The translations under genes were made by a program, and so were the position numbers. From Bacteroidota bacterium (GTDB taxonomy: Bacteria; Bacteroidota; Bacteroidia; Chitinophagales; Chitinophagaceae), in assembly GCA_025352905.1 (NCBI GenBank), contig JANXRX010000028.1, positions 1 to 37,119 on the forward strand: a stretch of DNA of 37,119 bases, read 5' to 3'. The notes under the pieces were generated by a model. The model worked only from the letters and a program-made list of their open reading frames with translations. It did no database searches and was not told the DNA's origin. Below are positions 66 to 36,535 of the stretch, in pieces; position 1 is the stretch's first letter, and each line of letters begins with the position of its first letter.

Positions 66-1317
66 CTGCCCAGCTTGGATGGGGTTTGTAGCCTTTCAGC
101 CCGAAAAAAAGTACGACCACGAAACAAATAAGCGGGATCACATAACCGTATTGGATATTATGGGTCAGATCCGTAATATAACCCAACAAAGGAGGCAATA
201 AAGCGCCACCCACGATCGACATAACAATCAGGCTGCTGCCCATTTCGGTATCTGTGCCAAGGTTCCGTATCCCCAGAGAAAATATAGTAGGGAACATGAT
301 CGACATAAAGAAAGCGATACCGATCACTGCATATACCGTTATCATCCCCGTGAGGGTAATGGCCGCTATGCATAACAATATATTCATGAATGCATACAAG
401 GCCAGTAATTTTGGAGGAGAGATGAACCGCATAAAGAACGTGCCTGCAAAACGGCCCACCATAAAAGCCATTCCACAACCCCAGCCTAAATAATCGGCGG
501 CTTTGATTTTATCAATACCTGCCGATTTTATCGCGAACAGGATAAAAAAACTAAACACACAAACCTGTGCCCCTACATAAAAAAATTGTGCGGTTACGGC
601 CCAAACCAGGTGTTTATGCCGTAGTGCATGCATGATACCCCGCCCACTATCGGCCGCAGTATCCTCCTTTATATCCGGCAGGTGAATAAATGCAAAAATC
701 AGGGCGATCAATACGATCACACATCCCAGGATAAAATAAGGCGTTTTTACAGATGCTGCCTCCGAGGCAAGCGCCATTTGCCGTGCACCCGCATCCATCG
801 CATTCAATGCTTCATCAGAAAACCCTTTGGTAAGGATCATCCTTGCACCAATGATCGGGGCCAATGTTGCCGCGAGCCCGTTAAAGGACTGAGCAAAATT
901 AAGACGTTGCGTGGAAGTAGCCGGATCACCCAATAAAGAAGCATACGGGTTGGCGGCGGTTTCGAGTATGGTTAATCCACAGGCGATGATGAACAGCGCC
1001 ATCAGGAAATAGGTATATTGTTGCGTATTGGCAGCGGGTATAAATAAAAAAGAACCGATCGCAAATAAGATAAGTCCCGAAATGATCCCACGCCGGTAAC
1101 CATATCGTTTCATAATATATCCCGCGGGCAGGGCCATCAAAAAATAAGCAATAAAAACGGATGAATCAACCAGCGATGATTGTAAAGTGGAAAGACTAAA
1201 AGATTTTTTGAGATGCGGTATCAGTATCGGGTCGAGATTATGCACAAACCCCCACATAAAGAAAAGAGAGGTAACCATGATAAAAGCAAACCGGGTATTA
1301 TTCTTAGCAGCAGCCAT
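61..1317 (-). CDS. FucP/GluP-family sugar:H+ symporter (MFS)
   Basis: This is an inner-membrane major facilitator transporter of the fucose/glucose/galactose permease family, which imports a monosaccharide together with a proton. The 418 residues carry about 12 hydrophobic segments, the usual length. Family hallmarks include an N-terminal FMWGFVHNLDPILIP helix, LETAANPYASLLG near residue 118, and FSLGIRNLGTDTEMGSSLIV in the C-terminal half. By remembered alignment, the essential Asp46 of E. coli FucP falls on a Pro here, with an Asp one residue earlier. The sugar is therefore not predictable and need not be L-fucose. The start ATG follows an A/T-rich leader. A possible downstream gene starts at its stop codon. 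Confidence 0.93.
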   Translation of the reverse strand: MAAAKNNTRFAFIMVTSLFFMWGFVHNLDPILIPHLKKSFSLSTLQSSLVDSSVFIAYFLMALPAGYIMKRYGYRRGIISGLILFAIGSFLFIPAANTQQYTYFLMALFIIACGLTILETAANPYASLLGDPATSTQRLNFAQSFNGLAATLAPIIGARMILTKGFSDEALNAMDAGARQMALASEAASVKTPYFILGCVIVLIALIFAFIHLPDIKEDTAADSGRGIMHALRHKHLVWAVTAQFFYVGAQVCVFSFFILFAIKSAGIDKIKAADYLGWGCGMAFMVGRFAGTFFMRFISPPKLLALYAFMNILLCIAAITLTGMITVYAVIGIAFFMSIMFPTIFSLGIRNLGTDTEMGSSLIVMSIVGGALLPPLLGYITDLTHNIQYGYVIPLICFVVVLFFGLKGYKPHPSWAV

Positions 1318-1370
1318 CGCATGTATTTGAGGGCATTAAGATAATTGAAGTTTTTTACTTTCTGAGATTT

Positions 1371-1471
1371 ACTCACCCCCCGGCCCCCTCTCTACAAGTA
1401 GAGAGGGGGAGGTTTAATTCACTTCTCTACTTGTAGAGAGGGGTGGCAAACGAAGTGAAGCCGGGGTGAGT
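1371..1471. repeat. 101-bp nested inverted-repeat element (MITE/REP-like)
   Basis: The outer arms ACTCACCCC(CC)GGC and GCCGGGGTGAGT enclose a second pair of perfectly complementary 20-bp arms at 1385-1404 and 1424-1443. Each inner arm is itself a palindrome (CTCTAC-AA-GTAGAG and CTCTAC-TT-GTAGAG), so a cruciform or one long hairpin is possible. It fills the gap between the methyltransferase and transporter genes and ends on the methyltransferase stop codon. It has no coding capacity. From memory, similar CTCTAC/GTAGAG elements are dispersed in other Bacteroidota genomes; this was not searched. Confidence 0.85.
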
Positions 1472-2646
1472 TACTTTCTTTTGGTTCCCGCATACAACTC
1501 ATATTCCAGCAGCCGGCAATCGATCGTTGCATTAAAAAATTCAATTCTCCGGGAAGGTTTTAATCGTATTTTTTTTGCAAGATCCAGGTTTCCTGTAAAA
1601 ATATACCCTGTATAACCCTTACAGCTATTCTTTAAAAAATCGCCGATCCTTGCATAGGTAACATTCAGTTCGATCTCATCCCCCAGCCTTTCCCCGTATT
1701 CAGGGTTGAACATAATGATACCGCCGGCTTCTTCAGGTACAGTTGTCTTTTCAAAATCGCCCGTCTCAAAACGGATCAGTTTGTCAACACCTGCGGCAGC
1801 AGCATTTATTTTAGCGATGTTGATAGCCTGTTCACTGATATCAGATGCAATGATCTGTATGCCCGCTACCTCCTGTACCTGCTCATCTATCCGTTGTTTT
1901 TCTGTTGTGTACATGGCTTCCGCATACCCTTTTATACTCATAAAAGCATAACGGGTACGTAACAGTCCCGGCACCCGGCGGGTAGCGATCAGTGCTGCTT
2001 CAATAGCAAGGGTACCCGAACCGCACATGGGGTTGATAAAAGGCGCTTGCCTGTTCCATTTAGTAGATAAAATAGTAGCGGCAGCAAGCGCTTCGAGCAT
2101 CGGCGCCTTTCCTGGCAGTTTGCGATAACCATGTTTGGCAAGCGTTTCGCCTGAAGTATCTATGAATATCTCGGCCTCTTCGTGTTTCCAGTACAGGTAG
2201 ATCACTGCGCCTGTTTGTTCAGAGCCGGTAGATGGACGCTTACCCGTTTCATTACGCATATGGTCAACGATCGCGTCTTTTACCCGCAGGTTGGCAAACA
2301 GGTTGGTTTGTATGGTTGGATGAAAAACATTACTGGTAACCGAAAAATAACCATCGGGTTCAATGATCGTTTCCCAGGGAAGTGTAACCAACTGTTGGTA
2401 CAATTCATCCGGGTGATCGCAGGCAAACGCTTTGAGTGAATACATGACCTGGCTGGCACACCGCAAATTAAGGTTCAGCCGTATGCAATCCGTAACCGTT
2501 CCATATAGCTCCACTCCTGTCTGAAAAGAACGCACGACTGTAAAACCCAGCTCCGTAACTTCTGATTGTAATGCGGGCGCCAGCCATTTATGACAGGTGA
2601 TGATGATCCGGCCGGGATTGGTGAAGACTTGCATAGCTGCAAACAT
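1471..2646 (-). CDS. THUMP-domain class I RNA methyltransferase (RlmL/UPF0020 type)
   Basis: Predicted SAM-dependent methyltransferase acting on structured RNA, probably 23S rRNA, and similar to the N-terminal half of E. coli RlmKL. An N-terminal THUMP-like RNA-binding region is followed by INPMCGSGTLAIEAALIA (SAM-binding region), SDISEQAINIA (acidic loop) and the catalytic loop NPEYGERLG. The family normally has NPPY, so the second Pro is replaced by Glu; this codon is GAA in the sequence. The ORF-track start at 2703 is unlikely because its first about 15 codons fall in a heptamer repeat array. MFAAMQ (2646) or MQVFTN (2634) is preferred, giving about 390 residues. No clear promoter was found. 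Confidence 0.88.
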   Translation of the reverse strand: MFAAMQVFTNPGRIIITCHKWLAPALQSEVTELGFTVVRSFQTGVELYGTVTDCIRLNLNLRCASQVMYSLKAFACDHPDELYQQLVTLPWETIIEPDGYFSVTSNVFHPTIQTNLFANLRVKDAIVDHMRNETGKRPSTGSEQTGAVIYLYWKHEEAEIFIDTSGETLAKHGYRKLPGKAPMLEALAAATILSTKWNRQAPFINPMCGSGTLAIEAALIATRRVPGLLRTRYAFMSIKGYAEAMYTTEKQRIDEQVQEVAGIQIIASDISEQAINIAKINAAAAGVDKLIRFETGDFEKTTVPEEAGGIIMFNPEYGERLGDEIELNVTYARIGDFLKNSCKGYTGYIFTGNLDLAKKIRLKPSRRIEFFNATIDCRLLEYELYAGTKRK

Positions 2647-2660
2647 AAGCAATAAGGGAT

Positions 2661-2730
2661 CGTGAGGCGTCAGTCGTGAGGCGTGAGTATTTTTTAGCCT
2701 CACAACTCATGTCTCACACCTCACGGACTC
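2661..2730. repeat. heptamer array, CGTGAGG/CCTCACG type, inverted
   Basis: The left arm reads in 7-bp steps CGTGAGG CGTCAGT CGTGAGG CGTGAGT. After a T-rich loop the right arm reads CTCACAA CTCATGT CTCACAC CTCACGG. The arms are imperfect reverse complements. The array lies between divergent genes and overlaps the over-extended start of the methyltransferase ORF. Confidence 0.8.
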
Positions 2731-2787
2731 TATTATTCGTATTTTCAATTTTTATTCGCAAAACCCGATCTCTTTAATCGTATTAAT

Positions 2788-3228
2788 ATGGACAGTTACA
2801 GTAAACAAATGCAGATCCGATGGAGTGATATGGACCCGAATTTTCATTTACGGCATTCCGTATATTATGACCTCGGGGCCACACTGCGCACTTTTTTTCT
2901 TACAGAACATGGGATCACGCCTGCGGTGATGATGGAAAAACAGATTGGGCCGATATTGTTCAGGGAAGAATGTGTGTTTAAAAGAGAGATCCATTTCGGC
3001 GATCCGGTTGAGATCAATGTAAAACTGGTGAAATGTACAGAAGATATGGGTCGCTGGACGATGCGGCACGAGGTATGGAAAAACAGTGACACCCTCAGCG
3101 CTATTATCACCATTGATGGCGCATGGATGCATACGGGCCTGCGAAAACTGATTTTACCACCGCCGGAGTTCCACAAACTATTTGAAGAATTTCCGCGCGC
3201 AGATGATTTCGAATGGACCCGGCGTTAA
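2788..3228 (+). CDS. hot-dog fold acyl-CoA thioesterase (4HBT family)
   Basis: A small cytoplasmic thioesterase of the 4-hydroxybenzoyl-CoA thioesterase superfamily, hydrolysing an acyl-CoA or acyl-ACP thioester; the substrate is not predictable. The 146 residues have the usual single-domain length. The N-terminal motif IRWSDMDPNFHLRHSVYYD matches the family pattern of an Asp (D16 here) at the start of the central helix. A GDPVEINVKL strand follows, as is typical. The gene is divergent from the methyltransferase across a heptamer array. It is convergent with the 69-aa gene, with a strong hairpin terminator between them. Confidence 0.85.
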   Translation: MDSYSKQMQIRWSDMDPNFHLRHSVYYDLGATLRTFFLTEHGITPAVMMEKQIGPILFREECVFKREIHFGDPVEINVKLVKCTEDMGRWTMRHEVWKNSDTLSAIITIDGAWMHTGLRKLILPPPEFHKLFEEFPRADDFEWTRR

Positions 3229-3246
3229 GGAAACTACTTACAGCAT

Positions 3247-3284
3247 AAAAAAAATCCCCCGTGGATAACGGGGGATGGGTTTTT
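3247..3284. terminator. bidirectional rho-independent terminator
   Basis: Perfect 9-bp stem ATCCCCCGT/ACGGGGGAT (3254-3262 and 3268-3276) with a 5-nt loop. An A-tract lies to the left and a T-tract to the right, so it can terminate both the thioesterase (+) and the 69-aa gene (-). Confidence 0.88.
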
Positions 3285-3303
3285 CATGGATAAATAAAAT
3301 AAG

Positions 3304-3513
3304 TTACAGTACACTCTGCCATCCCAGGTGGGCACTCTTGCTTTTCCGGTGGATGTTCCACAGATCTATTACACCAAAACTGGGTGCTTTTTTGCTTTTT
3401 GAGTTGTTTACTTTGATGACACCAGTTGCAACAGTTTCTTTTACTTCATTTACCAGTTGTTTCAGTTGATTCGCTTCTATTTGGACAATAGAAGGCATGA
3501 CATTACTTTTCAT
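3304..3513 (-). CDS. small basic protein, 69 aa, unknown function
   Basis: I do not recognise a named family. The N-terminal half (SIVQIEANQLKQLVNEVKE) can form an amphipathic helix. The C-terminal part is rich in Lys, Arg and Ser with two tryptophans (DLWNIHRKSKSAHLGW). There is no signal peptide, membrane segment or cysteine. The gene is credible despite its size because it has a near-consensus promoter upstream (TTTG-N20-TACTTTTG) and a perfect hairpin terminator just downstream. It has no long competing frame. MPSIVQ, five codons in, is an alternative start. The predicted leader of about 125 nt is unusually long for this window. Confidence 0.7.
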   Translation of the reverse strand: MKSNVMPSIVQIEANQLKQLVNEVKETVATGVIKVNNSKSKKAPSFGVIDLWNIHRKSKSAHLGWQSVL

Positions 3514-3645
3514 AATATTCTAATTTTATTATTTCGTTTTTACTGAGCGGAACGGGAGAAAAAACCAATTCAATCGTTAGAAGAATTCCTTCAAAATATC
3601 ACCCCAGGGAAACTTGATATATAGGTATCGCTCAGTTTCTGGGTG

Positions 3646-3677
3646 CAAAAGTACTACTTAGTAAATTACTAAACAAA
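3646..3677 (-). promoter_or_regulatory. Bacteroidota promoter for the 69-aa gene
   Basis: Read on the minus strand, -33 TTTG (3677-3674), a 20-nt spacer and -7 TACTTTTG (3653-3646) match the Bacteroidota consensus. The predicted transcript start is near 3639. The leader to the ATG at 3513 is closed by an 8-bp inverted repeat, ACTGAGCG/CGCTCAGT (3542-3549 and 3629-3636). Confidence 0.75.
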
Positions 3678-3722
3678 TAAAAGTGTAAATACAATGTTAA
3701 TGTGGGATTTAGTTCCTTACAA

Positions 3723-3774
3723 ATAGATCATGGTTCATAGTATTTATTTCTTACCATGATCTATAGGCTATGAA
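3723..3774. repeat. heptamer array, GATCATG/CTATGAA type, inverted
   Basis: Seven-bp steps GATCATG GTTCATA ... CCATGAT CTATAGG CTATGAA. The arms ATAGATCATGG (3723-3733) and CCATGATCTAT (3754-3764) are perfectly complementary. The array contains the stop codon of the desaturase gene and may act as its terminator hairpin. The words are nearly identical to those of the array at 35478. Confidence 0.8.
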
Positions 3775-4786
3775 CGCTGTTGTTCGAGATTACTTCCACG
3801 TCGGGCTTTGATTCATCTGTAAGCGGAACCTTTCCCCTGTTGCTTCTGATGACGCGGGAGAACAAAGAGATTTCCTTATCAAAAAGAAACCGGAAAAAAA
3901 GTTTTGTCCAGGAAGTATGGTAAGAAAGTGTATCGTAAAATTCGGGTGCATCTTTCCGGATCTGTGGCAATTTATTCCAGGGTATAGATGGAAAATCGTG
4001 GTGCTCATTGTGGTAACCCACATTAAAAGATATTTTATTCAGCGGACCATAATAACTATAGGTTTCCTGTTCGCCATGTGTTAAATAATGTTCCTGTATC
4101 CATCTGGCACCAAGCGGGTGCAAACCTACTGAAAAGAAAAAACTGGCTACCAGGAATACGGTTGCTTTAGGACCAAAGAAAAAGGCAATGGCAGAAATAG
4201 CAATAATCTGTACCGCCCAGTTCAACGCGATCCATTTGTCAAAAGGTTTGATCTCTTTTAAACGGGAAATCCTGAACAACTGGAAGAATGGGTAGAATAA
4301 GAGCCAGATCATCTTACCGATAAAATAATTATCGATCAGTTTCGCTTCCCAGTAATTGGGCAGGTCGCCATCCAGTTCATGGATCCCCTGGAAAGAATGG
4401 TGCTTGATATGGTATTTCTCAAAAGAAACGGAACTCGGAAAGATCAAAGGTATATTGGCAAGGATACCGGACAGCCGGTTTGCGGCCGGGTTTTTAAAAA
4501 GCAAGCGGTGCGCACATTCATGGATCATCACAAACAGGGAATGGTCGGCAAATGCCCCCAGTAAATAAGCCGCGCCAAACACGATCCACCAGGATTGATC
4601 GGTCACCAGCATAGATACAACAAATTGAAAAGCAACCAACCCCAGAATGGCCCAGAAAGTATATGGGTTCTTACCGATCAGTTTCCGCATATCCGGGAAC
4701 TGCTTTAGTATTTCTTTTGTTCTCCCACGATGCGGCTCCGCTACGTTACTGTACACAAAATCTTTCTTTACACTCTTTACTTCCAT
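3761..4786 (-). CDS. membrane fatty-acyl desaturase, sphingolipid delta-4 desaturase (DEGS) type
   Basis: Predicted di-iron membrane desaturase introducing a double bond into a lipid chain, most likely the long-chain base of a (dihydro)ceramide. Three histidine boxes are present: HECAH (89-93), HIKHH (126-130) and HNEHH (259-263). Beyond these, an N-terminal region like the DES domain (FVYSNVAEPHRGRTKEIL) and the segments ETYSYYGPLN and FNVGYHNEHHDFP correspond closely, from memory, to human DEGS1. The 341 residues compare with about 323 in DEGS1, and four or more hydrophobic segments are visible. The start at 4786 is preferred because the longer ORF start at 4843 lies inside a promoter -7 element. 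The heptamer inverted repeat at its 3' end may terminate transcription. A generic fatty acid desaturase is the alternative. Confidence 0.85.
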   Translation of the reverse strand: MEVKSVKKDFVYSNVAEPHRGRTKEILKQFPDMRKLIGKNPYTFWAILGLVAFQFVVSMLVTDQSWWIVFGAAYLLGAFADHSLFVMIHECAHRLLFKNPAANRLSGILANIPLIFPSSVSFEKYHIKHHSFQGIHELDGDLPNYWEAKLIDNYFIGKMIWLLFYPFFQLFRISRLKEIKPFDKWIALNWAVQIIAISAIAFFFGPKATVFLVASFFFSVGLHPLGARWIQEHYLTHGEQETYSYYGPLNKISFNVGYHNEHHDFPSIPWNKLPQIRKDAPEFYDTLSYHTSWTKLFFRFLFDKEISLFSRVIRSNRGKVPLTDESKPDVEVISNNSVHSL

Positions 4787-4840
4787 AAATGATCGTTTAA
4801 GGCTTCCCGGGATATACAGGAAGACTGCTTTTAATGACGG

Positions 4841-4848
4841 CAAAAATA
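4841..4848 (-). promoter_or_regulatory. -7 element upstream of the desaturase
   Basis: TATTTTTG on the minus strand fits TAnnTTTG. The predicted transcript start near 4834 leaves a leader of about 48 nt to the ATG at 4786 and excludes the ORF-track start at 4843. No -33 element is seen at the ideal distance. Confidence 0.45.
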
Positions 4849-4948
4849 CTCATTATCCCCCGAACATCCATAAACAACCGGTTTTGCCGTACCTGTCCCA
4901 TAAAATCCCCAAATAAATACAAAAAAATAATATATCCACAATTTAAAC

Positions 4949-4969
4949 GACCAATGACCAATGACCCTC
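4949..4969. repeat. short heptamer array (GACCAAT)
   Basis: Three direct 7-bp units, GACCAAT GACCAAT GACCCTC, immediately upstream of the S9 peptidase. No inverted arm is seen here. Confidence 0.6.
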
Positions 4970-5008
4970 ATTTATACATTTTTCCTATCTTGTCGCAAAC
5001 TACTGTTT

Positions 5009-7807
5009 ATGAAACAACGGATACTTTTTTCCCTGTTACTGGTGATGGCATGCACCTGTCTGACCCATGCACAGCAAAAGAAAAACCTGGGCACCGAGGA
5101 TTATGGTAAATGGCAAACCCTGGCCGCAACAGAACTCTCACCGGATGGCGCATGGGTGGCTTACCTGGTAACGGTACTGGAAGACAATGATACCCTGTAC
5201 GTGGTGAACCGGGCCACACACAAGACCTATAAAGTTGAATTTGCGGCCACCCCCGAATTTTCAAAAGACAATAAATGGATCGCCTACCGCATCGGTGTCC
5301 CTTTTAAAGAAGCGGAAAAACTGCGCGACCAAAGCAAACCCATTGAATATAAAATGGGACTGCTTAATTTAGAAACCGGTAAAAAAGAAGTGATCCAGAA
5401 TATTTCCCGTTTCAGTTTCTCCCGTAATGGTAAATTTCTCGCTGCCTACCTCGCCCCGCCAAAAGAGAACAAGGACAAGGGCAGTGTATTGTTATTAAAG
5501 AACCTTACCGACAATACAACACATACCATCGGAAATGTGACGGAGTTTTCTTTTAATAAAAAAAGCGACTACCTATCTTATATTGTAGAATCTGCCAATA
5601 CTGCAGGTAATTCTGTTGAGTTATTGAACCTGGGCAATTATTCTCTGAAAATTATTGCGAGCGATACGCTTAAATTCTCAAAACTTACCTGGCAGAAAGA
5701 AGGAGAAGGCTTTTCATTCTATAAGACCTTCAAAAAAGACACGTATGAAGAAGAGAATGCCGTTGTATATACCTACACCAGCCTGTATCAAACACCTTCT
5801 TTAAAAGTATTCGACCCGGTAGAAAACGCTTCTTTTCCTAAGAATATGCGTGTGTATAATAGCTCCGGCCTGCAGGTAAGCGATGATATGAGTTCCGTTT
5901 TCTTTGGCCTGAAACCATGGACCCCAAAACCTAAAAAAGAAGATAAAAAAACTACTGATTCTTCCAAAATGAAAATGGCAGACAGTACGAAAACAAAAAC
6001 AGATTCGAGTAAGACACAACTGGCAAAAAAAGACCCTGCTGAAAAATCCGCCGCAGTGGATATCTGGCACTGGAAAGATGTGGAAGTACAACCCAGCCAG
6101 AAAGTGACCTATGCACGTGATAAAGAAGCCAGTTTTCTTTCTGTGTGGAATCTTGATAATAACAGTTTTTTCCAGCTTGCCAAAGAAGCCACGCCGGATG
6201 CGTTGGTAACCGGTAACCAGAAATACGTGATCACCTCAACCGATAAAAAATACAAACCTGCCTTCAAGGAAGATTTTGCAGATTACCATCTCCTGAATGT
6301 GAAAACAGGGGAAGACAAAGTATTGTTTGAGAAAATGCTGGATGGTTTTTATACGGGCCCACGCTCCTCGCCTGATGGCAGGTACCTGTACTATTTTAAG
6401 GACAAAAACTGGTGGACATACACGATCGCCACACAGCAAAGCACCAACATCACGCAATCCATCAAAACAGATTTCTGGAACACGCGCGATGATCATCCGG
6501 CTACCAAACCACCTGTTGGGTTAGGCGGATGGCTGAAGGATGATAAAGCGGTACTGGTATATGATGAATACAATGTATGGTCGGTAAAACCCGATGGCAG
6601 CGGCGCCACAAAGATCACCAATGGTGAAAAGGAAGAGATCGTATCGCGTGTAACCAGACTTGATTTTGAAGATCCTTTTTTAGACGACAGCAAACCTATT
6701 TACTTCGCTAACTATGGCGATAAGACCAAAAAATATGGGTATTCAAAATTAGAGAACGGTAAATTGGATAACCTGATCTTCGAGGACCTTTCTGTTAGCC
6801 GTCTTGCCAAAGCAAAAGATGCAAACACTTACACATTTGTAAAACAGGATTACCACCTCTCTCCCGAATTGTATGTAACCGATAATTTTACCAACAATAC
6901 CAAAGTAGCCGGTACCAACCTGCAGCAGGCGAATTATTACTGGGGTAAGAGCCAGTTGATCAGCTTTACCAATAAGAATGGTAAAAAAATGCAGGGTGCG
7001 CTCTATTACCCTGCCAATTACGAACCGGGCAAACAGTACCCGATGATCGTTTATATTTATGAGATCCTCACCAATGGCGTACATAACTATATCAGGCCCG
7101 GTGTCCGCAGCCCTTATAACACCACCAACTTTACCACCAATGGATATTTTATCTTTCAACCGGATATTGTGTATGAGACCAACGACCCGGGTATGAGCGC
7201 CGTTAACTGCGTGGTACCTGCCGTAAAAGAAGTGTTGAAGACCGGGATGATCGATAAAGACAAGGTAGGCATCATGGGTCATAGCTGGGGCGCTTACCAG
7301 ACATCTTTCCTGATAACACAAACAGATATATTTAAAGCCGCAAGCGCCGGTGCACCCCTGACCGACCTCGTGAGTATGTCGCTCTCCATTTACTGGAACA
7401 GCGGTACCCCGGATCAGAAAATATTTGAAACCAGCCAGGGAAGATTTGACGGTCCCTGGTATGAAAGAACCGAGGCGCATATCCGTAACTCGCCAATGTT
7501 CAATGCTTCCAAAATCAAAGCGCCTTTACTGGTGGCTTTTGGCGATAAGGATGGTGCGGTTGACTGGCACCAGGGTATAGAAATGTATGGCACGATGCGC
7601 AGGATGGAAAAACCGCATGTGATGCTGGTCTACGCAGATGAGAACCATAGCCTGGCTAAAAAAGAGAACCAGATAGATTACCAGAAACGCCAGAAAGAGT
7701 GGTTCGACCATTACCTCCTGGGCAAGCCAGCTGAAAAATGGATCACAGAGGGTATCAGCTACCTCGATAAAATGAAAGAAAAAGACAAACAGGCGGAACT
7801 AAAGTAA
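5009..7807 (+). CDS. secreted S9-family serine peptidase (prolyl oligopeptidase family)
   Basis: Predicted periplasmic or secreted peptidase that cleaves peptides, often after proline or another residue by exopeptidase action. The preferred start MKQRILFSLLLVMACTCLTHAQ gives a clean signal peptide; the track start 16 codons earlier does not. Residues of about 30-640 form WD/beta-propeller-like repeats. The C-terminal alpha/beta hydrolase has the nucleophile GHSWG (Ser759), a probable Asp in FGDKDGAV (about 848) and His in ENHSLA (880), so the triad is complete. A 40-residue Lys/Thr/Asp/Ser-rich insert with no hydrophobic content interrupts the propeller (about residues 310-350). The mature enzyme of about 910 residues is longer than a typical DPP-IV-type S9 core. 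A heptamer array follows the stop. Confidence 0.92.
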   Translation: MKQRILFSLLLVMACTCLTHAQQKKNLGTEDYGKWQTLAATELSPDGAWVAYLVTVLEDNDTLYVVNRATHKTYKVEFAATPEFSKDNKWIAYRIGVPFKEAEKLRDQSKPIEYKMGLLNLETGKKEVIQNISRFSFSRNGKFLAAYLAPPKENKDKGSVLLLKNLTDNTTHTIGNVTEFSFNKKSDYLSYIVESANTAGNSVELLNLGNYSLKIIASDTLKFSKLTWQKEGEGFSFYKTFKKDTYEEENAVVYTYTSLYQTPSLKVFDPVENASFPKNMRVYNSSGLQVSDDMSSVFFGLKPWTPKPKKEDKKTTDSSKMKMADSTKTKTDSSKTQLAKKDPAEKSAAVDIWHWKDVEVQPSQKVTYARDKEASFLSVWNLDNNSFFQLAKEATPDALVTGNQKYVITSTDKKYKPAFKEDFADYHLLNVKTGEDKVLFEKMLDGFYTGPRSSPDGRYLYYFKDKNWWTYTIATQQSTNITQSIKTDFWNTRDDHPATKPPVGLGGWLKDDKAVLVYDEYNVWSVKPDGSGATKITNGEKEEIVSRVTRLDFEDPFLDDSKPIYFANYGDKTKKYGYSKLENGKLDNLIFEDLSVSRLAKAKDANTYTFVKQDYHLSPELYVTDNFTNNTKVAGTNLQQANYYWGKSQLISFTNKNGKKMQGALYYPANYEPGKQYPMIVYIYEILTNGVHNYIRPGVRSPYNTTNFTTNGYFIFQPDIVYETNDPGMSAVNCVVPAVKEVLKTGMIDKDKVGIMGHSWGAYQTSFLITQTDIFKAASAGAPLTDLVSMSLSIYWNSGTPDQKIFETSQGRFDGPWYERTEAHIRNSPMFNASKIKAPLLVAFGDKDGAVDWHQGIEMYGTMRRMEKPHVMLVYADENHSLAKKENQIDYQKRQKEWFDHYLLGKPAEKWITEGISYLDKMKEKDKQAELK

Positions 7808-11889: not shown

Positions 11890-11990
11890 AAAGTGGCAGG
11901 CTACTCACATCGCACCGCTACAACCGCCTATCCTTGCTGTATTCCTACCCTGGGGAGGTTCAGCAGGAGCTGGCCGTGTAAGACCTGCCG
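11890..11990 (-). ncRNA. ffs: small signal recognition particle RNA (4.5S type)
   Basis: This is the RNA scaffold that binds Ffh and targets nascent membrane and secreted proteins. On the minus strand the apical helix 8 reads CAGG-GUA-GGAA-UAC-AGCA (11952 to 11935). That is the universal SRP arrangement of a GGAA tetraloop closed by a short stem and a CAGG/AGCA symmetric loop. Flanking pieces pair as expected: CCUCCCC with GGAUAGG, GCUGAACC with GGUUGUAGC, and the terminal GGCAGG (11989-11984) with CCUGCC (11900-11895). The transcript of about 100 nt ends at a U5 tract (11892-11888) and starts just after a -7 TACTTTTG. It is the small type without an Alu domain. It was not in the ORF track. 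Confidence 0.92.
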
Positions 11991-11993
11991 GGG

Positions 11994-12001
11994 CAAAAGT
12001 A
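11994..12001 (-). promoter_or_regulatory. -7 element of the SRP RNA promoter
   Basis: TACTTTTG on the minus strand places transcription start at about 11988-11990, exactly at the first base of the terminal SRP helix. The expected -33 position falls in a heptamer array and shows no TTTG. Confidence 0.65.
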
Positions 12002-12034
12002 ATTAATAATTGCTAATTAGTCATTAATAATTGC
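12000..12034. repeat. heptamer array (TAATTAA/TAATTGC)
   Basis: Five contiguous 7-bp units: TAATTAA TAATTGC TAATTAG TCATTAA TAATTGC. The array touches the SRP RNA -7 element on one side. On the other it encodes the last residues and stop of the T9SS plug protein. Confidence 0.82.
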
Positions 12035-13304
12035 TCCCGAGGTTCCGCGAGTTAATAGTAGTTATCCCAATGAGCTCATCATGCCGGCCGCTGAAAGAGT
12101 GATAATAAAACAGGATCGTATATTCATTCTCTGTTTCCCAGTAGCTGCCTTCAGTTGTGACAGGATCTGCTTTTGCAGTTTCATTTTTGTCATCCTTAGT
12201 TACATAGATATAACTATAGTAACCTTGTTTTAAAAGCAGGCTCCTGGTATAAACCCCTTTTTGTGCATCGTATACCATTTTTGAGGTTTCACCAACCTGG
12301 TTACCCGTCAATTCACCTAAAAGATATATGCTTTTACCCGCGTAAGGCTGGTTATTGGCTGGCGTAAACGTAAACTGCACATTGGCATAATCACTTTGCC
12401 ACCAGGGATTGATGTACTCTGTGGTACCTATCTCCTCCCAGCCATTACGGTCTTTGTAATAGGCATAACGCAGCCGGCCTCTTTCAGGATCTGGTTTAAT
12501 ATATATGTTGATCGGTTGCGTGGTTCTTTCTATCCTTTCAATACGGTCCGATTCGAAGCGGAAACTCTGCAGGTCGGCCCAGCGGTATTCTTTTCCTGCA
12601 GGAAACAAACAATCCTGCTCCCCGTTATATTCCATGACACTTCCTCTTATAAAGGAAGGCTGGATACCTGTAGTTGCATTATCCCAGCGGTTATTCTGTA
12701 GTATCACAACTGTTACCTGCTGCGGGCTGAGTATATTCAGCTGTTGCGTATTTACTGAGAACTGGATCTTCTGATGCGAGTATAAAAGTTCAGGATCGAA
12801 GGGTTGCTGCACACGCGCAGCGATACTCACTTTGTTTTCAATCACCATCATCCGTTTGGTGAACGCCAGTTTAGAGGTATCCGCATCCAGGAAAACCTTT
12901 AACAGATAATTACCGCTTTTGGCGGGCATACAGTTCCTTTCAGGCAGCAGGGCCTGGTAATGCACATACTTGGTGGCCGCAATAGTTGATACCCGGTATT
13001 GATTCAACCGGTTCTGTATAAAGCCTTTGATATAGTCAAACACGTTTACATCAGCCGGCGTCCAGTCGGCATTACATAACTGAATGGTATAATAATAATT
13101 CTTCGGTGAACCGCCCAGGTCATCAAAATGAAGTTCCAGCTGGTCAGAAGAACCAAGAATCAGCAATGCCGGACTTTGCTGGTTGTTTTCACGGAACAGT
13201 TTTACCGAGTGTATATCCGGAATATAAATATGATCCGGCAGCCGCTGCGCAAAACAAGTACCCGATACAATAAAAAACAATAGCAATAGCAATGATCTTG
13301 ACAT
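12024..13304 (-). CDS. type IX secretion system plug protein (DUF5103 family)
   Basis: Secreted protein of the family formerly DUF5103, now called the T9SS plug. It associates with the SprA outer-membrane translocon and closes it when no substrate or PorV is engaged. A signal peptide (MSRSLLLLLFFIVSGTCFAQ) is present. Family features seen are the N-terminal DHIYIPDIHSVKLFRE segment, the YYTIQLCNADWTPADV motif, a central YIKGFIQNRL helix, and a C-terminal beta-sandwich with YINPWWQSDYANVQF and GYYSYIYV. The 426 residues are typical. Its last codons (SNY-stop) are made from a heptamer repeat. This indicates that the organism exports cargo by T9SS. Confidence 0.88.
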   Translation of the reverse strand: MSRSLLLLLFFIVSGTCFAQRLPDHIYIPDIHSVKLFRENNQQSPALLILGSSDQLELHFDDLGGSPKNYYYTIQLCNADWTPADVNVFDYIKGFIQNRLNQYRVSTIAATKYVHYQALLPERNCMPAKSGNYLLKVFLDADTSKLAFTKRMMVIENKVSIAARVQQPFDPELLYSHQKIQFSVNTQQLNILSPQQVTVVILQNNRWDNATTGIQPSFIRGSVMEYNGEQDCLFPAGKEYRWADLQSFRFESDRIERIERTTQPINIYIKPDPERGRLRYAYYKDRNGWEEIGTTEYINPWWQSDYANVQFTFTPANNQPYAGKSIYLLGELTGNQVGETSKMVYDAQKGVYTRSLLLKQGYYSYIYVTKDDKNETAKADPVTTEGSYWETENEYTILFYYHSFSGRHDELIGITTINSRNLGSNY

Positions 13305-14712: not shown

Positions 14713-14767
14713 GTTGTTGGTCATAAGACTAACAACGGCGTGTTGGTCATAAGACTAATAACGGCGC
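14713..14767. repeat. tandem 26-bp duplication with hairpins
   Basis: TTGGTCATAAGACTAACAACGGCG is repeated with period 26 (copies at 14717 and 14743), one substitution apart. Each copy contains GGTC-ATAA-GAC, and the first extends to GTTGTTGGTC/GACTAACAAC. The duplication lies between convergent genes and may act as a double terminator hairpin. Confidence 0.75.
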
Positions 14768-15507: not shown

Positions 15508-17865
15508 ATGCGTTTACCGGTTAAAAAAGCAACTGCTGTTTATTTCTTCCTGTTCCTGCTGGTGATATGTAGCTCCTGTGGTACCGTTGTGAAAGACTTT
15601 TCCACCACCAAACCTTTTGTTTACGACAATAAAATAACACTAAACGGCAATATCACCAAAGATGAAAAAAACCGGTTACAGTCTGATCTTGATAATTACT
15701 GGGACGCCAGTTTAAAAGTACGTAAAGTAGAGAAGTTCTTCGGGATCAAATATGTGATCACCAACCCGCCGGTATTTGATTCCAACAATATCAGCCGCAC
15801 CATTACTTTTATGAATGCGTATCTCAACTCACAGGGATATTATTATGGGGTGTTTACAGATTCGGTAAAAATTGATACGGTAAATAACCAGATGAGAACC
15901 CGGGTGGCCGTTGTGATCAATGTTGGTAAGAATATTACCATTGATTCTGTTTCTTTTGATCTTTCAGACAGCAGCCTGCAAAAATTAACGGTAGAGGGAG
16001 AAAAGAATACCCTGTTAAAAAAAGGGATTCCCTATACCAAACAGGTGATCAGCTCAGAGTTGGACCGGCTCGTGACCCTATACAGGCAGAATGGTTATTA
16101 CAATTTTACGCGCGAGAATATTCTTGCGTATGTAGACAGTACCGACAAACGTTTACTGGAGCTTACGCTGGATCCTTTTAAACAGGCGCAGCTGATTGCA
16201 GAAGCTTCAAAAAGCAGGAAAGAAAATCCTGCCTGGGATATTGCTGTAGAAAGAAAACCCAGCTTTGATTCATCTATTCTTTACCAGTATCATATCGGCA
16301 AACTCTATTATTACCCGGAAACAAAGATTTATGATCTGACCGACAGTCTTATTGAGCAGAAAGGATTTCTTGAATACCAGAGACGCGAACTGGTGATGCG
16401 GTACCGGAAGGGCCTTTTCAACTACCGGCCGCTTCGTGAACATACTTACCTGCGGAGGGGGCAATTGTATAATGAAGACAACTATTATAAATCGCTCAAT
16501 ACCCTTGGCCGGATCGGCGCCTGGCAACAGGTAGACGGTAAGCCGGTGATCAGGGGTAAGGACAGCCTGGATATTTATTTCTTCCTGGTGCCTGCTGTCA
16601 AACAGAGCTATGATGTGAACCTGGAAGGGAGCCTGAATACATCGGATATCGGCACCGGAAATCTTTGGGGGATCTCAACCAGCCTTTCGTATACCAACCG
16701 GAATGTATGGAAAAGCGCCATTCAGTCCATTGCCACTTTCCGTACGGGTGTGGAACTGAATATCCTTAGCGATAACCAGGACCGGTTACTGCAAACCTTC
16801 CTGATCAGCCTTGGACATACCTATGTATTTCCCGGGCTTGTGCAACCTTTCCGTAACTGGAAGATTTTAAATAGGGCCGATAATAAACGGACACTGTTCA
16901 ATGTAACGGGTTCATATGTTGACAGGAGGGACTATTACCGTTTGCGTTCATTGGTAACGAGTTGGGGGTATGAATGGAAAAAAGGAAATAATGTATGGTT
17001 ATATAAACCCCTGAATATTGAATTGTACTCGATCGATAAATTATACAAGCTGGATAGCCTGATCCTGAAAAATCCTTTTTTAAAAGCATCGTTTAATGAA
17101 GGAAAGATCGTGAGCCAGAGTTTATCCTTCATAAAAACTTTCAATGCTTTACACAATCCGAACAAAAGTCATTATATCCGTCTTGGGATTGAAGAAGCCG
17201 GGGGAATCTGGGGATTTTTTGATGCTTTCAAGAACCAGATTTACCGCTATGTAAAACTGGAAGCGGAATACAGGCAGAGTATCAAGATGCGTAAATCAGA
17301 ACTCGCTTACCGTGCTTTTGCAGGTGTAGGTTATAATTACGGTACCGATCCTGTTATCGGTACAACCCTTCCTTTTTTCAAACAATTCTCAGCCGGGGGG
17401 CCCTACAGTATGCGGGCATGGGGGTTACGGCAACTGGGTATGGGCAGTTCTATCCAGAGTGATACGATCTCCACTTCCAATTACCGCGACCGTTTTGGAG
17501 ATATGCAGTTAGAGGCCAATGTAGAATACCGTTTCCCGCTTACTACTATTGCCGGTATCAAAATAGCGAGTGCACTCTTTGCAGATATGGGGAATGTGTG
17601 GAACGTAAAAAAGATCGCTTCCGACCCCGAGGCACAATTTGCGTTTAAAAATCTGATCCATGACCTCGCTATAGGCGTAGGTACGGGCGTAAGGATCGAT
17701 TTTAATTACTTCCTCATCCGGCTCGATCTTGCCTATAAAGTAAAAGACCCCGCACGCAGGTATAATGACGGATGGATGAAAGGATTTTCGTTTACGGAAA
17801 CAAGACAGAACGGGCTTGAAGTAAATAACCTCGCCTTGCAATTGGGGATCGGCTTACCGTTTTAA
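15508..17865 (+). CDS. BamA/TamA-family outer membrane lipoprotein (TamL-like)
   Basis: Predicted 16-stranded outer-membrane barrel of the Omp85 superfamily that assists outer-membrane protein or lipid assembly. The N-terminus (FLFLLVICSSCGTVVKD) is a lipoprotein signal with Cys in the lipobox. This is the feature of the Bacteroidota TamA variant TamL rather than BamA. POTRA-like repeats occupy about residues 40-360. The barrel then carries the Omp85 signature region GGPYSMRAWGLRQLG (loop 6 VRGF/Y-like) and ends in LGIGLPF with a terminal Phe. The 785 residues fit. The gene overlaps the convergent truB by 12 bp. No tamB is in view. Confidence 0.88.
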   Translation: MRLPVKKATAVYFFLFLLVICSSCGTVVKDFSTTKPFVYDNKITLNGNITKDEKNRLQSDLDNYWDASLKVRKVEKFFGIKYVITNPPVFDSNNISRTITFMNAYLNSQGYYYGVFTDSVKIDTVNNQMRTRVAVVINVGKNITIDSVSFDLSDSSLQKLTVEGEKNTLLKKGIPYTKQVISSELDRLVTLYRQNGYYNFTRENILAYVDSTDKRLLELTLDPFKQAQLIAEASKSRKENPAWDIAVERKPSFDSSILYQYHIGKLYYYPETKIYDLTDSLIEQKGFLEYQRRELVMRYRKGLFNYRPLREHTYLRRGQLYNEDNYYKSLNTLGRIGAWQQVDGKPVIRGKDSLDIYFFLVPAVKQSYDVNLEGSLNTSDIGTGNLWGISTSLSYTNRNVWKSAIQSIATFRTGVELNILSDNQDRLLQTFLISLGHTYVFPGLVQPFRNWKILNRADNKRTLFNVTGSYVDRRDYYRLRSLVTSWGYEWKKGNNVWLYKPLNIELYSIDKLYKLDSLILKNPFLKASFNEGKIVSQSLSFIKTFNALHNPNKSHYIRLGIEEAGGIWGFFDAFKNQIYRYVKLEAEYRQSIKMRKSELAYRAFAGVGYNYGTDPVIGTTLPFFKQFSAGGPYSMRAWGLRQLGMGSSIQSDTISTSNYRDRFGDMQLEANVEYRFPLTTIAGIKIASALFADMGNVWNVKKIASDPEAQFAFKNLIHDLAIGVGTGVRIDFNYFLIRLDLAYKVKDPARRYNDGWMKGFSFTETRQNGLEVNNLALQLGIGLPF

Positions 17866-25170: not shown

Positions 25171-25991
25171 TACCCGTAACCCATCTTTTTGCCATTCTTG
25201 ACCAAAAACTGGTAGAACTGCTTCGTTCTTTAGAGCCGGATGACTGGAACAAACGGACACTGGCCAAACAATGGAGCGTGAAGGATGTGGCTGCTCATTT
25301 ACTGGATGGAAATTTACGTGCCCTGTCCTTTTCGAGAGATCAGCATACCATGCCACCAGTCGGTGGTGATATCCATTCGTATGATAGCCTGGTAGGCTTC
25401 CTCAACCGCTTAAATGCAGAATGGGTACTGGCTGCCAAAAGACTTAGCCCGCAGGTACTCACAGACTTGTTGGAAACCAGCGGTAAAGAATATACGTCCC
25501 ATATGCAAACGCAGGATCTTACTGCACAGGCTGTATTCGCAGTTGGCTGGGCCGGTGAAACCGTTTCTCAAAACTGGTTTCATATAGCGCGTGAATACAC
25601 GGAAAAATGGCACCACCAGCAACAGATAAGGGAAGCGGTTGATAAACCAGGTATTATTACCAAAGAATTGTTCTACCCTGTTATGGATACTTTTATGTGC
25701 GGCCTGCCGCATACTTACCGGAACACGCTTGCAGAAGATGGGACCGTGTTGCAGATCACTATAGATACAGAGAATGGCGGCAACTGGTATTTGGTTCGTA
25801 AGCAAACTGCCTGGCAATTATCCAAACAACCGGAAGCCGGTATCCACGCTTCGCTGCTGATGCAACCAGGTACCGCATGGAAATTATTTACCAAGGGTAT
25901 TTCTCCCGCAGAAGCGCGTAAAGAGGTTGTTATCCATGGAGATGAATCCTTAGCAAGTGTGGCGCTTTCACTGGTTGCGGTGATGGCGTGA
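25167..25991 (+). CDS. DinB-like / maleylpyruvate isomerase N-terminal domain protein
   Basis: Predicted metal-binding four-helix protein of the DinB/MDMPI superfamily, whose members include thiol-dependent transferases and isomerases. The N-terminal helix pair with [14 protein letters not shown] carries a typical metal-ligand His. A later [14 protein letters not shown] helix carries the other candidate His residues. A C-terminal sterol-carrier-like domain (about residues 175-274, ending [20 protein letters not shown]) fits the usual two-part layout. The substrate is unknown. The start overlaps the nudK stop (ATGA). The stop codon lies in a heptamer array, and the gene converges on the M16 operon 39 bp later. 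Confidence 0.82.
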
Positions 25992-26029
25992 AACGTGAGC
26001 CGTGAGAATATAACTGACGACTCTCGACA
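25988..26029. repeat. heptamer array (GTGAGCC) at a convergent junction
   Basis: Seven-bp units GTGAAAC GTGAGCC GTGAGAA TATAACT GACGACT CTCGACA. The first unit includes the stop codon of the DinB-like gene. The words resemble the 2661 array (CGTGAGG). Only the first three units are clearly related to each other. Confidence 0.6.
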
Positions 26030-33472: not shown

Positions 33473-33480
33473 GGCGCAAA

Positions 33481-33615
33481 ATAATTATTAATTAATAATT
33501 AGTAATTAATAATTAGCAATCGCAGGTAATAAAGAATGGTGGGAGTAAGAGAGTACCTGAATATTTTCCAGCAGGAACAGGTAGCAGCAGAAAAATCGAC
33601 AATTATTAATTATTC
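33481..33615. repeat. heptamer arrays (ATAATTA) flanking a 76-nt non-coding core
   Basis: Left array: ATAATTA TTAATTA ATAATTA GTAATTA ATAATTA GCAATCG (33481-33522). Right array: CAATTAT TAATTAT TCATACT (about 33599-33619), which overlaps the stop of the 71-aa gene. The core between them contains CAGGTA/TACCTG and CAGCAG words that could fold. No ORF or known RNA was recognised in it. Confidence 0.75.
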
Positions 33616-34640: not shown

Positions 34641-34648
34641 TATGTTTG
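34641..34648 (+). promoter_or_regulatory. -7 element of dapD
   Basis: TATGTTTG is a perfect TAnnTTTG match. The predicted start near 34654 leaves about 7 nt before the ATG at 34661. The -33 is weak (TTTC about 20 nt upstream). It rules out the track's TTG start at 34646. Confidence 0.55.
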
Positions 34649-34660
34649 CAAAAAAAACAC

Positions 34661-35473
34661 ATGTCCTTACAGAAACAGATACAGGAAGCCTGGCAGAACA
34701 GGGAACTATTAAAAGAACCTGGGTATACCGATGCGGTAAGATCCGTGATAGAACAGGTTGATAAGGGGCATTTGCGTGTGGCCTCACCCGGAGAGAAGGG
34801 CTGGGTTGTGAATGAATGGGTAAAACAGGCCATCCTGCTTTATTTTGGTATTCAGCAGATGCAGACCTGGGATACGCCCCCATTTGAGTTCTATGATAAG
34901 ATGCTGCTGAAATCTGATTATAAAGAACTGGGCGTACGCGCGGTACCTCCCGCAACCGCCCGTTATGGCGCGTATATAGCCCGTAATGTGGTACTGATGC
35001 CCAGTTACGTAAATATCGGGGCGTATGTAGATGAGGGTTCGATGGTGGATACCTGGGCCACCGTAGGCAGTTGCGCACAGATTGGCAAACACGTTCATTT
35101 GAGTGGCGGAGTAGGTATCGGCGGGGTGCTGGAACCACTGCAGGCCAGCCCGGTGATCATTGAAGACGGTTGTTTTATCGGTAGCCGCTGTATTGTAGTG
35201 GAAGGGGTGATCATTGAAAAAGAAGCCGTACTCGGGGCCAATGTAGTACTTACCCAGTCTACCAAGATCATTGATGTAAGCGGCGCCGAACCCATTGAAT
35301 ATAAGGGACGCGTTCCCGCCCGCAGCGTGGTAATACCCGGCAGTTATACCAAGAAGTTCCCTGCCGGCGATTACCAGGTCAGTTGCGCCCTGATCATCGG
35401 CCAGCGTAAGGCCAGTACCGACCTGAAGACGAGCTTGAATGATGCACTGCGGGATTTCAATGTTAGCGCTTAG
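34661..35473 (+). CDS. dapD: tetrahydrodipicolinate N-succinyltransferase
   Basis: Catalyses succinylation of 2,3,4,5-tetrahydrodipicolinate in the succinylase branch of lysine and diaminopimelate synthesis, using succinyl-CoA. After an N-terminal helical domain (residues 1-95), the left-handed beta-helix of hexapeptide repeats is obvious: MPSYVNIGAYVDEGSMVDTWATVG, VHLSGGVGIGGVL and IIEDGCFIGSRC. The 270 residues are typical. The start ATG (MSLQKQ) at 34661 is preferred because the longer track ORF starts at a TTG inside the -7 element. It is followed by a 27-bp-arm heptamer hairpin and then the EamA transporter. Confidence 0.95.
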   Translation: MSLQKQIQEAWQNRELLKEPGYTDAVRSVIEQVDKGHLRVASPGEKGWVVNEWVKQAILLYFGIQQMQTWDTPPFEFYDKMLLKSDYKELGVRAVPPATARYGAYIARNVVLMPSYVNIGAYVDEGSMVDTWATVGSCAQIGKHVHLSGGVGIGGVLEPLQASPVIIEDGCFIGSRCIVVEGVIIEKEAVLGANVVLTQSTKIIDVSGAEPIEYKGRVPARSVVIPGSYTKKFPAGDYQVSCALIIGQRKASTDLKTSLNDALRDFNVSA

Positions 35474-35477
35474 CAAA

Positions 35478-35547
35478 GATCATGGATCATAGTTCATAGG
35501 TCATAGCAAGCCCGTCCGACTATGATCTATGAACTATGATCCATGAA
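35478..35547. repeat. heptamer array, GATCATG/CTATGAA type, 27-bp inverted arms
   Basis: Ten consecutive 7-bp units in register: GATCATG GATCATA GTTCATA GGTCATA GCAAGCC CGTCCGA CTATGAT CTATGAA CTATGAT CCATGAA. The arms (35480-35506 and 35520-35546) are complementary over 27 bp with one mismatch and a 13-nt loop. It lies between dapD and the EamA gene and could block or trim transcripts. The words are shared with the array at 3723. Confidence 0.88.
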
Positions 35548-35555
35548 CTTCTTCT

Positions 35556-36485
35556 ATGAATAAGAATCATACAATTACTTTTGCCGGTTTCCTCATCTCC
35601 CTCACCGGTGCGATCTTGTTTTCTACCAAGGCAATTTTTGTAAAACTTGCTTTCCGGTCAACACAGGTAGATGCGGTTACTTTGCTGAGCCTGCGGATGC
35701 TGTTCTCATTACCATTTTACCTGGTGGCGGCCTGGATGGTGTCGAAAAAGGAAAATAAAAAGGTGATGAGCCTCCGCGATTGGATCCTGATTATCATGCT
35801 GGGGATCCTCGGGTATTACCTGAGCAGTTTGTTTGATTTTATCGGGTTGCAATATGTATCTGCAGGGCTGGAACGGTTGATATTATTCCTGTATCCAACA
35901 TTTGCCGTTCTGATCAATACTTTTTTCTTTAAAGCAAAACTCAGCCGGGTACAGTTGATAGCGCTGGCACTTACCTATCTCGGTATCGGGATCGCTTATT
36001 TTGGCGAGTTGCAGGTGGATACATCCAATCCCAAATTTTTTTTTGGTTCCTTCATGATCTTTCTTTGTGCGGTTACCTATTCATTTTACCTGGTGGGAAC
36101 CGGCAGGATGGTAGAAAAAGTTGGGGTAACCCGCTATACAGCCTATGCCATGCTGGCCGCTACGGTGGGTATCTTCCTCAATTTCCTGTTTACGCACCGG
36201 GTCCAAAACATTCCTTTTACGCCCGCGCTTACCGGCTATGCCATCGCCCTGGCCATTATCGCCACTGTTTTACCTTCTTTTATGATGAGCAATGGAATGA
36301 AACGAATCGGCAGCAATAACGTGTCCATCATCACCAGTATCGGCCCTGTTTCCACTATTATACAGGCGCATTTTTTCCTGGGTGAGCAGATCATTGCCGC
36401 CCAGGTATTTGGAACCACGCTGGTCATCGCAGGCGTGATACTGATAGGCTGGCAATCAAAATACGGAACGGCGGAAAGCAATTGA
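35556..36485 (+). CDS. EamA-family (DMT) transporter
   Basis: Predicted inner-membrane drug/metabolite exporter of the EamA family. Ten hydrophobic helices are visible in two repeats of about 140 residues (GFLISLTGAILFSTKAIFVKLAF and later GSFMIFLCAVTYSFYLVGTGRM). The GxxLIxxGVxLI-type end (FGTTLVIAGVILIGWQ) is the usual C-terminal helix. The 309 residues fit the family. The exported compound is unknown. There is no consensus promoter, and the start ATG follows the heptamer array after only 8 bp. It could be read from dapD transcripts that pass the hairpin. Confidence 0.9.
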   Translation: MNKNHTITFAGFLISLTGAILFSTKAIFVKLAFRSTQVDAVTLLSLRMLFSLPFYLVAAWMVSKKENKKVMSLRDWILIIMLGILGYYLSSLFDFIGLQYVSAGLERLILFLYPTFAVLINTFFFKAKLSRVQLIALALTYLGIGIAYFGELQVDTSNPKFFFGSFMIFLCAVTYSFYLVGTGRMVEKVGVTRYTAYAMLAATVGIFLNFLFTHRVQNIPFTPALTGYAIALAIIATVLPSFMMSNGMKRIGSNNVSIITSIGPVSTIIQAHFFLGEQIIAAQVFGTTLVIAGVILIGWQSKYGTAESN

Positions 36486-36535
36486 ATATCGAATGTCGAG
36501 GTATAACGCAGTTGCTCATTTCGACATTCGGTGTT
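36484..36535. repeat. heptamer array, GAATATC/TTTCGAC type, inverted
   Basis: Units GAATATC GAATGTC GAGGTAT AACGCAG TTGCTCA TTTCGAC ATTCGGT. CGAATGTCGA (36490-36499) and TCGACATTCG (36521-36530) are perfectly complementary. It begins at the EamA stop codon. Confidence 0.75.

Follow-up and report, generated by a model that had tools for sequence, protein, structure and literature searches.

The stretch of DNA analysed here (termed the window) is 37,119 nt long and constitutes one complete contig (C266) within a 3.40-Mb draft genome of 330 contigs, the relatives of which are Chitinophagaceae. Between dapD and a gene for an EamA-family transporter lies a hairpin (termed here the main hairpin) whose 5' arm begins 2-4 nt past the dapD stop codon, whose 3' arm stops 5 nt short of the EamA start codon, and whose arms, when compared unit by unit, agree at 27 of the 29 positions of the heptad part. 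Table 1 lists this hairpin, the other heptad arrays of the window and the genes that adjoin them. An Rfam scan found no family over the hairpins, its sole match being the small SRP RNA beside the array at 12000. A direct repeat outside of the heptad set (26 bp, two copies, 96% matches) occupies positions 14715-14766 of the window.

Table 1. Heptad arrays of the window, with the genes and the RNA mentioned in the text
Feature	Positions	Strand	Family
heptad hairpin, GTGAGNC class, in a divergent gap	2661..2725		
short ATRG-class hairpin, 3' of the minus-strand ORF 3761-4843	3723..3775		
GACCAAT array, 3 units; complementary arm looked for, none found	4946..4966		
TAAG-class (AAGGGAT) hairpin, 4 nt past a stop codon	7812..7880		
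small SRP RNA, 5' end adjoins the TAATTAN array at 12000	11890-11997	-	Rfam RF04183
TAATTAN array, flanked by the stop of the minus-strand ORF 12024-13304 and by the 5' end of the small SRP RNA	12000..12032		
GTGAGCC units across a stop codon, convergent gap; weak	25986..26022		
TAATTAN array, self-complementary, 41 bp	33480..33520		
dapD (tetrahydrodipicolinate N-succinyltransferase), 5' neighbour of the main hairpin	34646..35473	+	PF14805
main hairpin, 5' arm, AA-GATCATG GATCATA GTTCATA GGTCATA G	35476..35506		
main hairpin, loop, CAAGCCCGTCCGA	35507..35519		
main hairpin, 3' arm, reverse complement of the 5' arm	35520..35550		
EamA-family transporter gene, 3' neighbour of the main hairpin	35556..36485	+	PF00892
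GAATATC/GAATGTC heptads across the EamA stop codon, complementary 3' arm present	36484..36534		

The initial annotation of this DNA had claimed a 7-nt period at about nine intergenic loci, and this is borne out: at all nine, identity at lag 7 is far above that at lags 6 and 8 (e.g., 19/22 at 35478, 27/33 at 33481 and 16/20 at 2661), the loci at 3726, 25988 and 36484, with just two or three units each, being too weak to stand alone. When a single threshold is applied to the window's intergenic DNA, six period-7 and four period-14 arrays are obtained, as against 0.08 arrays each for periods 7 and 14 in dinucleotide shuffles of the same DNA (maximum 2 in 200 shuffles), and periods 5, 6, 8, 9 and 10 yield none or one (one at period 6, none at period 8). 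If the window is combined with unbiased contigs--that is, with contigs of the same genome picked without regard to repeats--and if a score of at least 13 is required, then there are 19 intergenic arrays of period 7, seven of period 14 and none of the remaining periods from 4 to 15. Within the intergenic DNA of the unbiased contigs, runs of at least nine matches number nine at lag 7 and ten at lag 14, with none at lag 6 and two at lag 8; coding DNA shows no excess at lag 7. For two further genomes of the genus (400 kb each), there are 22 and 56 lag-7 runs, 1 and 0 lag-6 runs, and a lesser peak at lag 8 (13 and 11 runs); lags 14 and 21 likewise are elevated. The intergenic excess of lag 7 over lags 6 and 8, on which the initial annotation had staked its claim, is therefore present both in the window's genome and in two relatives. 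The further statement that the period stays constant from locus to locus is accurate only in part: period 7 dominates, yet hairpins of period 8 form a second, less numerous set, so that the period varies to some degree.

The proposal that each locus has a different word, free in sequence, is not borne out. The arrays at 3726 and 35478 have one common word, a degenerate form of which (allowing up to two mismatches) matches 53 times per strand genome-wide; the reversed pattern, used as a control, matches nowhere in the genome. More generally, about ten main classes of word account for the 87 intergenic arrays identified within 0.98 Mb; these classes recur across the genome--ATRG+NNN, TAAG+NNN, GTTTGGN and GTGAGNN among others--and have some positions fixed and others variable. 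The unit of the largest class (the class frequencies being biased, because some contigs were picked for carrying one word) consists of ATRG plus three variable bases, and that of another class of TAAG plus three; many of the same words occur within the unbiased contigs, too. An array in another genome (G043, contig C1, from position 21449) contains ten consecutive ATRG tetramers at a spacing of 7, the spacers between which are mostly different.

Several arrays were also said to carry a reverse-complement arm in the same register, and folding confirms this at 2661, 3726, 7812, 35478 and 36484. Many arrays form one arm of a hairpin close to a stop codon. A stem score of at least 14 is reached by 60, 30 and 60 intergenic hairpins in three genomes, respectively, and by none in base-shuffled sequence. 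The left arms of these hairpins have a lag-7 identity of 0.49-0.52, versus about 0.25, and a simple period test assigns period 7 to 71 of these 150 hairpins and period 8 to 24. Because hairpins identified by stem score have already been selected for complementarity, a separate test was run on 42 pairs of ATRG arrays, which were selected by the tetramer alone without looking at the variable bases, and for which the register was that of best agreement, for real and swapped pairs alike. Within these pairs, identity between the variable bases of one arm and those of the opposite arm is 78.5%, as compared with 59.4% between arms of different elements from the same genome (maximum 70.1% in 200 shuffles) and with 53.7% between neighbouring units of one arm. 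The variable bases thus mirror the opposite arm rather than the next unit, which is not predicted by whole-unit slippage alone, since this predicts the reverse order.

Both the words and the hairpins are oriented. Neighbouring arrays of one word class are convergent in 51 cases and divergent in 3 (with the control pattern left out), and G outnumbers C on the 5' arm of 63 of the 68 decided period-7 hairpins. These 68 cases are not independent, because words are common to several elements; counted by word class, there are roughly ten classes with few exceptions. The corresponding counts are 21 of 42 for non-periodic hairpins and 11 of 20 for period-8 hairpins, which have no fixed polarity. Of 126 arrays located at most 40 nt past a stop, 94 have the word on the coding strand, and the coding-strand bias of the hairpins, being a consequence of their polarity, is not separate evidence. 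As regards placement, convergent gaps are over-represented (44 of 142 hairpins versus 112 of 706 gaps) and divergent gaps under-represented (16 of 142 hairpins versus 176 of 706 gaps; p = 5e-6 for orientation overall). Within tandem gaps a hairpin lies a median of 17 nt from the stop and 66 nt from the start (p = 0.005), start positions being rough, because genes were called from long ORFs without a trained caller. The idea of a universal stop-codon cassette--a heptad array places any stop that it contains in all three frames--was dropped, because words such as GTTTGGR contain no stop.

Orthologous gaps were expected to gain, lose or swap arrays, and they do so, including by indels of one 7-nt or four 8-nt units. 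The dapD gap occurs in relatives in three states: (i) no hairpin, in a gap of only about 16-40 nt; (ii) a hairpin without heptads; and (iii) a heptad hairpin with the same or a different word. Words found there include GTCCATR (L124 and L155) and ATRG with variable spacers (L172 and L173), and Sediminibacterium ginsengisoli (L142) has the very same gap sequence as G040 (L169), a genome classified in the same genus. Hence, at the single orthologous site examined, namely the dapD gap, it is the hairpin rather than the word that recurs. Between G077 and G090, whose dapD genes are 92.1% identical, there is an exact 7-nt indel together with one compensated pair change; between G072 and G076 (94.6%) one base differs within the hairpin. 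The hairpin of G126 and G124 (dapD 95.9% identical) is not built of heptads; five of its stem pairs are altered on both sides with pairing retained, and three are broken. The two-sided changes speak for correction between arms; the three broken pairs and the lack of heptads speak against it, and the difference could reflect replacement of a segment. Within the same two genomes, the gap 3' of the EamA gene contains a period-8 array with a 32-nt difference--that is, four units. At another site, where some relatives have about four units, about 15 and 20 near-identical AGTGAAR units, a different word, occur elsewhere (L137:487-592 and L138:554-691), directly 5' of a terminator-like hairpin.

The breadth of the phenomenon was explored using a search pattern of ATRG plus three bases, four consecutive times. 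Of 147 genomes in the genus, 29 contain it, with a maximum of 555 matches; of the 248 genomes sampled across the order, 110 contain it, as do 67 of the 121 genera. Some genomes (G023, G151, G112 and G013) instead have many matches to the reversed control pattern (GRTA plus three), which suggests that a different tetramer word is used there. The period-8 version is scarcer and peaks in genomes that are poor in period-7 matches. Period-8 intergenic hairpins with the words CTTTGCGC, CACAGAGG and GCCACTGA were noted at L045:3765-3819, L084:11787-11838, L039:12784-12844 and L087:3389-3445, and a literature search on period-8 words returned nothing pertinent. A 21-kb stretch from Niastella sp. OAS944 (L146, positions 390-5578 and 16227-16316) carries ten period-7 and seven period-8 arrays with the words GAACTNA and AAAGCYN. 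Identical AACTTTTGGAAAGTT palindromes are present in several copies within about 5 kb of G043 (L201-L220, contig C1, 196101-200490).

The whole-unit indels, when taken together with the mirrored variable bases, point to growth by slippage plus correction of arm against arm. The account tentatively preferred here, which is a real possibility though short of a probable one, is that these elements are gene-end palindromes that would have grown by unit slippage and whose arms would be kept complementary by arm-to-arm correction. The elements are intergenic palindromes that reside mostly at the 3' ends of genes and have arms composed of 7-nt units (8 nt in the second set). On this account, a short unit array would change length in whole units through replication slippage; the arrays would occur as inverted pairs; and template switching between the arms during replication (quasi-palindrome correction) would maintain complementarity by copying variable-base changes of one arm into the other. 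Template switching during replication acts at the DNA level and is familiar from general studies of imperfect palindromes. The insert would be tolerated at gene ends, where some copies may end or protect transcripts; presumably template switching is the correcting process, and tolerance rather than function presumably lies behind the placement at gene ends. Template switching alone does not predict the 63:5 polarity, the 7-nt unit, or the occurrence of one tetramer in many genera. The palindrome nuclease SbcD (TIGR00619) may be largely absent from the genus, and palindromes may survive on that account; as a permissive factor its absence was rejected, the cut-off being reached in only 4 of the 147 genus genomes with no separation of array-rich from array-poor ones.

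The correction of arms could reflect either replication template switching or selection for an RNA stem. The latter would make the elements functional RNA hairpins--an unlikely reading, but one deserving of serious consideration--in which selection maintains the stem because it terminates the upstream transcript or protects its 3' end, heptads being just one route to a long stem. Their proximity to stops within tandem gaps, their avoidance of divergent gaps and the retention by several relatives of a sequence-unrelated hairpin directly past the dapD stop all speak for this, and hairpin termination without poly-U trails is on record (PMC8355165); further relatives, however, have a dapD gap of 16-40 nt with no hairpin, and the stem followed by a U-tract that defines an intrinsic terminator is seen in just 10 of 73 heptad hairpins. 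Moreover, sense-strand mismatches within tandem gaps comprise 35 G.U and 32 A.C, a near-equality that favours neither strand and that is expected from DNA-level correction, not from RNA-level selection. There is thus no sign that the sense transcript is under strong constraint at the RNA level, with the 67 mismatches excluding only a strong G.U excess; RNA-level selection by way of G.U wobble was rejected on this basis, and therefore DNA-level correction is ranked first and functional RNA hairpins second. Neither of these explains the 7-nt unit or the polarity.

Slippage acting on length, as the initial annotation suggested, is upheld as a contributor by the unit-sized indels of two close pairs. 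Plain 7-bp replication slippage, aided by the footprint of DNA polymerase (an idea cited in PMC4692102) and followed by point mutation, would in addition fit the site with about 15-20 near-identical units in two relatives and about four elsewhere, as well as the elevation of lags 14 and 21. As a sufficient cause it is not supported, and as the sole cause it is improbable, because the variable bases are closer to the opposite arm than to the next unit and the word keeps to one strand (51:3); the mostly different spacers between ten consecutive ATRG tetramers, the fixed polarity and the use of period 8 likewise tell against it. Less probable still are protein-binding sites, on either DNA or RNA, at which a G-containing tetramer is recognised once per 7 nt: the conserved tetramer with its variable spacer, the fixed strand and the presence of ATRG in more than half of the sampled genera of the order are what such sites would produce, but different words and period 8 are in use both in other lineages and at further loci within the same genome, and no candidate protein was identified. 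The least probable of these explanations invokes mobile REP- or MITE-like elements spread by a transposase such as RAYT (Y1_Tnp). Identical words do occur at dozens of loci, and Y1_Tnp is found in 17 of 20 array-bearing versus 11 of 35 other genomes of at least 3 Mb (p = 2e-4, a value that ignores phylogeny). The loops, however, differ between copies, no heptad element was seen to have a recent, intact duplicate at an unrelated position of its own genome, and Y1_Tnp as the driver was rejected: G109 (a single contig, 99% complete) yields no Y1_Tnp hit despite its 366 ATRG matches, and at four of the five Y1_Tnp loci examined (the window genome's two loci left out) there is no hairpin within about 1.5 kb.

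Polarity, mirroring, unit indels, word replacement and a period of either 7 or 8 thus constitute testable constraints on any mechanism, which must account both for the G-rich 5' arm and for variable bases that track the opposite arm. Should these hairpins serve to terminate or protect transcripts, they would form a large, unannotated class of gene-end signals within the Chitinophagaceae and related families. A bolder and distinctly unlikely reading is that one unrecognised process, acting on one strand, builds or recognises a word containing G at 7-nt intervals along the 5' arm of intergenic palindromes and keeps the arms complementary. With changing words, it would have operated across no fewer than 67 genera of a single order as well as in Xanthomonas and Nostoc, whether or not it arose there independently. 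Were this true, then these would be structured DNA or RNA elements defined by period and polarity, not by sequence.

Elements of this kind are already known, because PMC4692102 and PMC4679880 describe such heptamers. The initial annotation named the cyanobacterial STRR sequences as the nearest precedent, an apt comparison, but a closer one is found in Xanthomonas and Nostoc, whose heptameric repeats are GGGAATC or (GGGANTN)n and GGGGA(C/T)T, respectively (PMC4692102). Those of Xanthomonas have fixed and free positions, are about 90% intergenic and nearer to the upstream ORF, form 70-75 convergent inverted pairs per genome, avoid divergent gaps, and vary in length and sequence among related species (PMC4692102). 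That paper (from 2015), which cites a 2007 report of heptameric repeats being over-represented in bacteria, describes such repeats as having no detailed literature or established function. The arrays examined here likewise favour a 7-nt period over neighbouring periods, are mainly intergenic, form convergent inverted pairs (51 versus 3), lie nearer to the upstream ORF stop and avoid divergent gaps. Unlike the Xanthomonas and Nostoc repeats, they lack a G-tract word with G-quadruplex potential, most words here having GG at most; because the G-tract word defines the published subset, kinship of kind is claimed here rather than membership of that subset. Whereas one G-rich word per genome was studied there, about ten words occur here within one genome, along with mirrored variable bases and a swap of words at an orthologous site.

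The STRR of Calothrix, for which three words are given in the citation within PMC4692102, are likewise tandem arrays of heptanucleotides, of which one genome has several words; neither hairpin arms nor mirrored variants, both present here, are mentioned in that citation. TAACTGA direct repeats, which occur in Beggiatoaceae, Cyanobacteria and some Bacteroidetes, also are intergenic heptamers that undergo 7-nt indels (between close Cyanothece strains), but they consist of one direct word located, in Beggiatoaceae, mostly just 5' of starts, whereas here several words occur, inverted and near stops (PMC4679880). REPs and REPINs, as far as PMC3733652 and PMC8266576 describe them, are similar in being short intergenic palindromes with many copies; REPs have a common sequence with GTAG/CGTC tags, whereas the elements here have in common the unit and the period alone, their loops and arms differing between copies and a cognate Y1_Tnp flanked by the repeats being absent from G109 and from four of the five loci. 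As far as found in the literature searched, four features are new: the many words per genome, the mirroring of variable bases, a measured polarity that holds from one word class to the next, and the exchange of both word and hairpin at one orthologous site. Fast turnover of words between species, with hairpin and orientation retained, extends the pattern seen in Xanthomonas and cyanobacteria and suggests that simple slippage is not its whole cause.
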